Assembly: GCA_018667335.1 (NCBI GenBank)
Contig: JABIVD010000027.1
Coordinates: forward strand, 124,001-188,000
DNA: 64,000 nt
Origin: Rhodospirillaceae bacterium
Lineage (GTDB): Bacteria > Pseudomonadota > Alphaproteobacteria > UBA6615
Direction of reading: 5' to 3'
The stretch's first letter is position 1. Every line of letters starts with the position of its first letter. A program made the translations under genes and the position numbers. Below the pieces are notes generated by a model. The model did no database searches. It was not told the origin of the DNA and saw nothing but the letters and a program-made list of their open reading frames with translations. Positions 59,651 to 61,255 of the stretch are shown piece after piece.

Positions 59651-59811
59651 TATCGTCCTCCATTCGCTTGGCGTGGAATTCTCACCGCCAGATCAACATT
59701 AACTGCCACATCACCGACCCCATACACCTGGTCGTTCGTGCGCGGTCGGACTAGCCAAGTCCTTGTCGCCAGTATGCCTCCCGACAGGGAACGGGTGAAG
59801 GGTTGCCGATG
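59650..59811 (-). pseudogene. Decayed 3' fragment of a paralogue of the 60399-60812 secreted-protein gene
   Basis: Read on the minus strand from 59811 the frame gives QPFTRSLSG, then VRPRTND, VYGVGD, VDLA and RQANGGR, ending TAG at 59650. The intact gene at 60399-60812 ends QPFTRSLSG, VRLRAND, VHGVGG, VDLA, RQADGGRS. By hand I count 31 of 51 identical residues with no gaps. There is no start codon, signal peptide or N-terminal half. The nucleotide match is strong around CCAGATC and CCGACCCCAT and fades upstream of 59811. Interpreted as the leftover 3' end of a duplicated gene. Confidence 0.75.
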
Positions 59812-60004
59812 ACAGGAGACCCGCAGACCGCGCCGGCAATTATCATGGCGATGCCCAGTTGCGAATGCGAACGCCTCACAATCTCATAAGCTTTTGATAA
59901 ATAGCCCTAATTTGAACAATTAGCTGGTGCATTTGAAAGACGACCGATACATTTCCGGTTGAGATATATCCCCGGCTATCGCCAGCCAAACAGGAGTAGA
60001 TGAC
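59812..60004. other. AT-richer spacer before the Cys-repeat peptide gene
   Basis: No coding gene seen. Noticeably more AT-rich than its surroundings from about 59880. A weak sigma-70-like pair, TTGATA and CAATTA with 17-bp spacing, begins near 59894. A Shine-Dalgarno AGGAG lies at 59992-59996. Presumably carries the promoter for the plus-strand peptide gene. Confidence 0.45.
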
Positions 60005-60301
60005 ATGTCTATTGAAACCGTTGTCCTGATGGACCTCCAAGATGAAGCACTCGATGCGCCGACCCAGGTAGCCTCATCTTGCGCGAAATGTTTCGTTTGC
60101 GTCTGCGTCGGAATTCACGACGAAACTCTGGAAGGACCGGCCCAGGAAGCCTCGACTTCCGCTCCGCGTATCGATTGCGTCGAACTCAGCGACGAAGCGC
60201 TCGATTCACCGTCACAGCTAGCCTCATCTTGCGCGCGCTGTTTCGTTTGCGTCTGCGTGGGCATCGGCGACGAGACACTCGAAGCACCGGCAGCCCGCTA
60301 G
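60005..60301 (+). CDS. Repetitive Cys-rich peptide, candidate multi-core RiPP precursor
   Basis: 98 aa, start ATG with AGGAG 8 nt upstream. After MSIETVVLMDLQ come four head-to-tail units: residues 13-38, 39-62, 63-88 and 89-98. Units 1 and 3 read DEALD-x-P, then ASSCA(K/R)CFVCVCVGI, and agree at 21 of 26 positions. Unit 2 keeps DETLEGPAQEAS but has lost the Cys block; unit 4 is only DETLEAPAAR. Thus each possible core has spacing CxxCxxCxC right after ASS, and each is preceded by an acidic D-E-A-L-D helix-like segment. VELSDEALD recalls heterocyclase recognition elements in some RiPP leaders (from memory). The same Cys spacing with an aromatic residue after the second Cys occurs in the methanobactin core (CGSCYPCSC). 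It could instead be a small metal-binding protein. No signal peptide. No YcaO, DUF692, radical-SAM, LanM or transporter gene is in the window. Codon use looks less GC-biased than neighbours. Confidence 0.72.
   Translation: MSIETVVLMDLQDEALDAPTQVASSCAKCFVCVCVGIHDETLEGPAQEASTSAPRIDCVELSDEALDSPSQLASSCARCFVCVCVGIGDETLEAPAAR
60041..60298 (+). repeat. Four tandem units within the Cys-rich peptide gene
   Basis: Units at 60041-60118, 60119-60190, 60191-60268 and 60269-60298. Units 1 and 3 share exact stretches GCCTCATCTTGCGCG and TGTTTCGTTTGCGTCTGCGT. Units 2 and 4 keep only the GACGA-xA-x-CT-GA start. The A-B-A-B similarity suggests that a two-unit block of about 150 bp was duplicated. Confidence 0.85.
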
Positions 60302-60330
60302 TCGCGGTTGCGATCAGTTAAGAGCGCGAA

Positions 60331-60358
60331 CGGGCCGGAGGATGTCTCCTCCGGCCCG
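60331..60358. terminator. Stem-loop between convergent genes
   Basis: Perfect 12-bp stem CGGGCCGGAGGA / TCCTCCGGCCCG with loop TGTC, 29 bp after the peptide gene stop and 40 bp beyond the minus-strand gene end. No T-tract on either strand, so it may act as a bidirectional or Rho-assisted terminator or as a 3' stabiliser. Confidence 0.6.
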
Positions 60359-60398
60359 TGACCGTGCGCATAGAAAGAGGGTTGGGCCTGCGGATCGC

Positions 60399-60812
60399 TC
60401 ACGACCGTCCGCCATCCGCCTGGCGCGATTTGCCCGTCGCCAGATCGACAATCAACTCTACCCCGCCGACCCCATGCACCTTGTCATTCGCGCGCAACCG
60501 GACCTCCTTGGTGCCAGCCGGCAATTTGACCCCGGACAAGGACCTGGTAAACGGCTGCTCGTTGACATGGGGATGGGCCAGGACCCGGGTCGCCAGCACC
60601 TTTCCGTCTAGACTCAACACTTCCCAGCGGTTGGCGTAGTGCTCCCAGCCTTCATCGGCATGGCGCACCGTCACACTGAAGCTGTAGGTGCTGCCGGTGC
60701 GCAGCGCGACGGCGGTCACGTCCGCCTCGCCCGCCATGGCCGTGCCACTGACCGTCGCAAACCCGAGGGTCGCGCCGACAAGCATCGCTGTGATTCCTAT
60801 TCTCCGCATCAT
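60399..60812 (-). CDS. Secreted conserved protein of unknown function
   Basis: 137 aa from the ATG at 60812, whose ATGA overlaps the thioesterase stop; the next codon is also ATG (60809). The frame to 60929 lies inside the thioesterase gene and is rejected. Signal peptide about 1-27 (ends GTAMA). The mature part is one beta-rich domain with VTVRHADEGWEHYANRWEVL and LAHPHVNEQPFTRSLSGV, a pattern I recognise from unnamed proteobacterial periplasmic proteins. The His of HADEGWEH and HPH could bind metal, which is speculation. A degenerate copy of its 3' end lies 590 bp downstream. Confidence 0.7.
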   Translation of the reverse strand: MMRRIGITAMLVGATLGFATVSGTAMAGEADVTAVALRTGSTYSFSVTVRHADEGWEHYANRWEVLSLDGKVLATRVLAHPHVNEQPFTRSLSGVKLPAGTKEVRLRANDKVHGVGGVELIVDLATGKSRQADGGRS

Positions 60813-61255
60813 GCGCTCATGGTCTCCTGTTCGATCTCGCGTGGTTTTCCGTCCGGTCCTATTGCCACATAGGTGAACACGCCTTCGGTCACTTTTTCGC
60901 GCACGAAACTGTCCCGGCGCAGCGTCCACACCTCGATCAGGAAGGTCATCGACGTCCGGCCGACCTTTTCGAGGTCGGCGTAACAGGACACGACATCGCC
61001 CACCTGGACTGGTTTCTTGAAGATCATGGATTCGACCGCGATGGTGACCGTGCGGCCGCCCGAATGGCTGCGCGCCGCGATTCCCCCGGCGATATCCATC
61101 TGTGACAGCAGCCAGCCGCCGAAAATATCTCCGTTCGGGTTGGTGTCGGCCGGCATCGCTGCGGCCTGAATGAACAATTCACCCCGCGGCTTTTCGCCGG
61201 GGTTTTCGCCGGAAGCGTCGCCGGATTCTTTGCTATCTGCGTTCTTCATTGTCAC
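60809..61255 (-). CDS. Acyl-CoA thioesterase, YciA type
   Basis: 148 aa hot-dog-fold thioesterase. MPADTNPNGDIFGGWLLSQMDIAGGIAA is the YciA signature with the catalytic Asp, followed by RTVTIAVESMIFKKPVQVGDVV. An N-terminal charged leader of about 25 residues (KESGDASGENPGEKPRGE) precedes it. Hydrolyses short to medium acyl-CoA. The second ATG (61249) is an alternative start. Overlaps the secreted-protein gene by 4 nt; divergent from parE. Confidence 0.9.
   Translation of the reverse strand: MTMKNADSKESGDASGENPGEKPRGELFIQAAAMPADTNPNGDIFGGWLLSQMDIAGGIAARSHSGGRTVTIAVESMIFKKPVQVGDVVSCYADLEKVGRTSMTFLIEVWTLRRDSFVREKVTEGVFTYVAIGPDGKPREIEQETMSA

Follow-up and report, generated by a model that had tools for sequence, protein, structure and literature searches.

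A 98-amino-acid protein encoded in the window, by which we mean the whole 64,000-nucleotide stretch of Rhodospirillaceae DNA analyzed here, is built of tandem repeats with Cys-rich blocks, and raises the question of whether it is a precursor of modified peptides and, if so, which enzymes would act on it.

Repeat architecture of the encoded protein

We translated the open reading frame at positions 60005–60301 on the + strand (P0001, 98 aa, MSIETVVLMDLQDEALDAPTQVASSCAKCFVCVCVGIHDETLEGPAQEASTSAPRIDCVELSDEALDSPSQLASSCARCFVCVCVGIGDETLEAPAAR*) and confirmed the layout described in the initial annotation: four tandem units, nine Cys residues (positions 26, 29, 32, 34, 58, 76, 79, 82 and 84) and two near-identical CxxCxxCxC blocks, which hold 8 of the 9 Cys, the remaining one standing singly. 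Units 1 and 3 follow the pattern LxDEALDxPxQxASSCA[K/R]CFVCVCVG, and units 2 and 4 share I[H/G]DETLExPA. A Shine-Dalgarno-like AGGAG closely precedes the start, the complementary frame is broken by stops, and a 13-bp perfect hairpin lies 3' of the gene (60330–60359, + strand; fold z -5.4), which resembles a terminator without a T tract.

The units were divided into recognition stretches and predicted cores, all on the + strand, with core boundaries modeled on the relatives described below, in which cores finish in Cys before [x][VI]xDE. Recognition stretch 1 (LQDEALDAPTQVAS, 60035–60076) contains the L(X)4L motif LQDEAL, the role of which was assigned according to PMC12455567, and is followed by predicted core 1 (SCAKCFVCVC, 60077–60106), whose ends were likewise taken from relatives. 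Recognition stretch 2 (IHDETLEGPAQEAS, 60113–60154), delimited by repeat alignment and the profile, precedes predicted core 2 (TSAPRIDC, 60155–60178), the terminal Cys of which abuts VELSDEALD. Unit 2 had been regarded as carrying a decayed core; the last residue of STSAPRIDC is a Cys that immediately precedes the following recognition motif, as in the cores of relatives, and the unit can equally be read as holding a different core. Recognition stretch 3 (LSDEALDSPSQLAS, 60185–60226; L(X)4L motif LSDEAL) leads into core 3 (SCARCFVCVC, 60227–60256), predicted from the translation and the comparison of modules, and the protein closes with a terminal, core-less recognition stretch identified by repeat comparison (IGDETLEAPAAR, 60263–60298). 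One precursor of a related genome (G011) also finishes in a core-less repeat, ending AAR.

When modules 1+2 of P0001 were compared with modules 3+4, dN/dS was 0.32 (0.24 for the DEALD parts alone), many differences in the recognition parts were silent, and the 30-base core DNA of units 1 and 3 differed at just three bases. The dN/dS between modules indicates that the protein has been under constraint, although this constraint may predate the insertion of the gene described below.

P0001 exhibited no significant match in Pfam, NCBIfam or solved structures. A weak match to Pfam DUF5837, which we take to be a cyanobactin-like precursor family, was located in recognition stretch 3, below threshold (15.7 bits versus a cut-off of 25), and the match to NCBIfam NF038168 (phazolicin family) was insignificant (E 0.81; 9.8 bits versus 33). 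A literature text search retrieved no paper on DUF5837 or the RSI sequence.

Relatives and their cyclodehydratase clusters

Using P0001 alone as the tblastn query, we obtained matches in two genomes, G022 (2e-7) and G011 (3e-5), both of which encode multi-unit precursors. The repeat profile was present in 3 of the 24 genomes of the taxonomic family, namely these two and the window's own, and matched no additional genome among a 385-genome sample of the class. The window's genome has one family gene, G022 has one precursor of 308 aa with 11 units and another of at least 431 aa with 16, and G011 has several, spread over more than one contig. Because the search alignment had included the window, a leave-out HMM was constructed with 36 repeat units, all taken from G011 and G022; the window scored 9.7e-12 against this model, compared with 0.0054 for the best of 2000 same-residue shuffles. 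No relative was confirmed when genome contigs were scanned with P0001 as the sole query, no plasmid matched P0001 or the G022 precursor, no phage matched the G022 precursor, and no orthologue of P0001 was found in congeners. Judged by these profile matches, P0001 belongs, as a diverged member, to a precursor family that Pfam and NCBIfam do not match.

The G011 and G022 homologues comprise 3–16 units, each consisting of a [V/I/L]xDEALD recognition stretch and a short Cys-rich core. Their cores contain 34% Cys and under 5% Ser plus Thr, and nearly always finish in Cys shortly ahead of the next recognition stretch; across the family, the number and spacing of core Cys vary strongly, whereas the DEALD stretch is constant. 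A divergent precursor type (MTINLTELRDEPLGK...), which has two recognition stretches and finishes in a Cys-rich segment, was also observed in G011 (L042, 1492–1734).

A YcaO gene lies about 2 kb from precursors in G011, and a partial YcaO gene lies at a contig end in G022, whose precursor and YcaO contigs are both short (C15, 9 kb; C458, 13 kb). YcaO and leader-binding domains were both found in G011, and YcaO in G022; the models over cut-off in the relatives' loci were TIGR03882, TIGR03604 and TIGR01194. This cyclodehydratase type was confined to G011 and G022 among the 24 family genomes, so that both enzyme-bearing genomes fall within the three precursor-bearing ones (chance 3/276, ignoring the relatedness of G011 and G022, which belong to one genus); the closeness of enzyme gene and precursors in G011 strengthens this association. 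By homology to precursors adjoining a TOMM cyclodehydratase, P0001 belongs to an azol(in)e (TOMM) precursor family, and the earlier proposal that recognition segments alternate with Cys-rich cores in a multi-core thiazole-type precursor finds support in these homologues near an enzyme of the TruD/LynD type.

Neighbors in the relatives' clusters included the TIGR01194 exporter, a membrane protein of the Band_7 type and small DUF697-like proteins, for which an immunity or export role is possible. The DUF697-like small membrane proteins alternate with precursors in loci L012 and L013. At L013 (6209–10710, G011), the YcaO gene, the Band_7 gene and one precursor gene are all frameshifted, through assembly error or decay.

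A contig scan with the YcaO alignment returned three loci. An intact 768-aa cyclodehydratase is encoded in L054; its YcaO part is 88% identical to the G011 enzyme, and it matched TruD (1.1e-123) and LynD (2.5e-121) over its full length, with MusD at 3.8e-110. On the same contig are genes for a SagB dehydrogenase that bears a ThcOx domain and for a cyclic-peptide exporter, and no precursor was recognized there. No subtilisin protease of the PatA/PatG type was recognized in the 14-kb L054, and none was visible in L013 or L017, these loci being the extent of the search. The L054 contig is placed in a Verrucomicrobia assembly bin, yet is about 88–90% like the alphaproteobacterial G011 cluster, which points to misbinning or transfer; an AurF-like diiron protein is encoded near its SagB gene. 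A PxPxP tail is usual for azoline-forming YcaO proteins; the YcaO C-termini in L013, L017 and L054 finish NP[IV]SF[FY]V.

The YcaO loci of two other family genomes were rejected as the partner system, as they represent either an NHLP-type TOMM cluster or a thioamidation-type YcaO (G008 C58, G014 C216). The NHLP-type cluster (L021, 2125–11756, G008) has a row of NHLP precursors (TIGR03793), a fused cyclodehydratase and a SagB dehydrogenase. The thioamidation-type YcaO genes lie at L022 (8090–10164, G008) and L023 (69–2644, G014); a TfuA-related gene, tested as such, adjoins the former, and a similar neighbor was seen in G014.

Insertion site and absent partners

The P0001 insertion is absent from two congeners, G005 and G006, which lack the segment corresponding to positions 59651–60398 and in which the genes on either side share a 4-nt overlap at this empty site, compared with a distance of about 750 bp in the window. 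Two parts make up the insert: a 168-bp decayed duplicate of the neighboring minus-strand gene's 3' end (gene, 60399–60833; copy, 59651–59818, - strand), which marks the inserted segment, and about 580 bp containing the precursor gene. The decayed copy is 67–70% identical to intact copies, and therefore either the insertion dates back some time or the material came from a foreign source.

The initial annotation placed the maturation enzymes elsewhere in the genome. The assembly (62 contigs, 96% completeness) does not bear this out: YcaO was absent from it even at E 10, no leader-binding domain exceeded the cut-off, and neither a cognate exporter nor a DUF697 partner was found. The TruD/LynD-type fused cyclodehydratase was found in the relatives' pathway, and neither it nor any YcaO with a leader-binding partner was found in the genome of P0001 itself. 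The lack of an enzyme is one half of what had been thought to count against the precursor reading; the other half, homologues in unrelated contexts, is not what we observed. Consequently, either the enzyme that matures P0001 is encoded on an element that escaped assembly or binning, or P0001 is an orphaned gene.

Two accounts of its present state refine the precursor reading. The gene may be a relic, which arrived as a stand-alone cassette or lost its enzymes and is now functionless; that enzyme, exporter and DUF697 partner are all missing from a 96%-complete assembly agrees with this, as does an insertion that two congeners lack and that adjoins a decayed gene fragment. However, the open frame is intact, the ribosome-binding site and 3' hairpin are present, the core DNA of units 1 and 3 is nearly identical, and the low dN/dS between modules speaks against loss of function insofar as it does not predate the insertion. 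We regard the relic account as a serious possibility that falls below even. Alternatively, the enzymes may exist in the species on an island or plasmid that was not assembled or binned. The 62 contigs leave room for such an element, precursors and YcaO in G022 also occur on short contigs, the partners absent here form one cluster in G011 such that a single gap would account for all of them, and the coding sequence is constrained; nevertheless, nothing positive was found for it, and the loss of one cluster from an assembly of this completeness is a minority event. This account, too, we consider quite possible, at somewhat under an even chance.

The alternative that P0001 is a metal-binding Cys-rich protein (metallothionein, zinc-ribbon or methanobactin-like) draws on its CxxC spacing and nine Cys, and some Cys spacing is shared with the methanobactin precursor. 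No homology to that precursor and no significant match to such families in Pfam, NCBIfam or solved structures was found, though, and the relatives occur with a TruD/LynD-type YcaO enzyme; moreover, variable cores beside a fixed DEALD stretch are the reverse of metal-site conservation. The methanobactin and metallothionein readings, the former raised in the initial annotation, were accordingly dropped, and a metal-binding role appears very unlikely. A chance repeat with no protein product, suggested by the missing orthologue in the genus, is refuted by the homologues in other genomes, together with synonymous-biased divergence and start and stop signals, and is extremely improbable.

Docking motif, known systems and proposed maturation

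The preferred reading, that of a modified-peptide precursor, can be compared with characterized systems. The strand to which the recognition domain of LynD binds in PatE is formed by the L(X)4L motif, and a related system tolerates Leu-to-Val or Phe changes in the motif (PMC12455567). L(X)4L was found in 7/7 N-terminal units of the family, that of the window included, all in the form LxDExL. In P0001, this cyanobactin leader motif (RSI) occurs as LQDEAL in the N-terminal unit and LSDEAL in unit 3. Position 1 of the motif, which was not set by the search pattern, is V, L, I or M in 44/44 units; position 6 belonged to the search pattern and is therefore not independent evidence.

Several further features are shared with the cyanobactin system of PatE/TruE and TruD, LynD and MusD, including the full-length match of the relatives' intact cyclodehydratase to TruD/LynD, the SagB/ThcOx-type dehydrogenase and several short cores that end in Cys and are each flanked by recognition sequences; the order of cores and stretches resembles that of cyanobactins, in which recognition sequences flank the cores (PMC4663559). 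However, the family is found in Alphaproteobacteria, the docking motif is repeated ahead of each core rather than present as a single RSI, up to 16 cores occur compared with 1–4 in PMC4663559, precursors are scattered over the genome, the DUF5837 score is sub-threshold, and no A or G protease was seen near the relatives' clusters. Because P0001 scores below the cut-off of the precursor model and the proteases were not seen, we do not file P0001 as a cyanobactin; it is a cyanobactin-like TOMM variant with repeated docking strands, present here as an orphan gene.

Other known systems resemble the family in some respects and differ in others. NHLP/Nif11 TOMM precursors, heterocycloanthracins and prochlorosins likewise have precursors away from the enzyme and variable cores behind a conserved leader, whereas the leader in this family is a short DEALD stretch with several cores per polypeptide. 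The multi-core microviridin precursor AMdnA also has several cores in one polypeptide, but depends on ATP-grasp ester and amide chemistry with no YcaO (PMC5934393). The phazolicin family is similar in being an alphaproteobacterial azole peptide, with the insignificant NF038168 match given above. A thiopeptide reading was dropped, since the cores have no second distal Ser, which is required for a thiopeptide pyridine.

Taken together, P0001 is probably a diverged multi-core azol(in)e RiPP precursor that acts like a cyanobactin precursor, and occurs as a stand-alone inserted copy with no partner in the assembly. The sequences themselves show that P0001 belongs to the family, how its repeats are arranged, and that family members lie together with the cyclodehydratase. 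Azoline formation from Cys is the best-supported chemistry, because of the docking motif and the Cys-rich, Ser/Thr-poor, Cys-ending cores; from these and the relatives' clusters we infer heterocycle formation, cleavage sites and a product as follows. The recognition domain of a TruD/LynD-type cyclodehydratase would dock on the LxDEAL strand ahead of each core, and the enzyme would turn core Cys into thiazolines, which a SagB/ThcOx-type dehydrogenase may oxidize to thiazoles. Cleavage between units would follow, and the product would be removed by a cyclic-peptide-type ABC exporter. Action in trans is plausible in the family, because G011 bears precursors on other contigs. In an alphaproteobacterial TruD/LynD-type system with a docking strand repeated before every core, a single polypeptide carrying as many as 16 units and scattered trans-acting precursors might yield a library of Cys-rich azole peptides, with single genes traveling as cassettes into enzyme-free genomes, a proposal to which we give nearly an even chance.

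If this reading is correct, the family offers natural precursors of 3 to 16 cores in which every core follows a docking strand of its own; with these it could be tested directly whether an enzyme of the LynD type acts on one unit at a time, and what effect core order and number have. The orphan P0001 also prompts the question of whether precursor genes can spread independently of the enzymes that process them. Cyanobactin-type thiazole chemistry would then extend to a group of uncultured Alphaproteobacteria.
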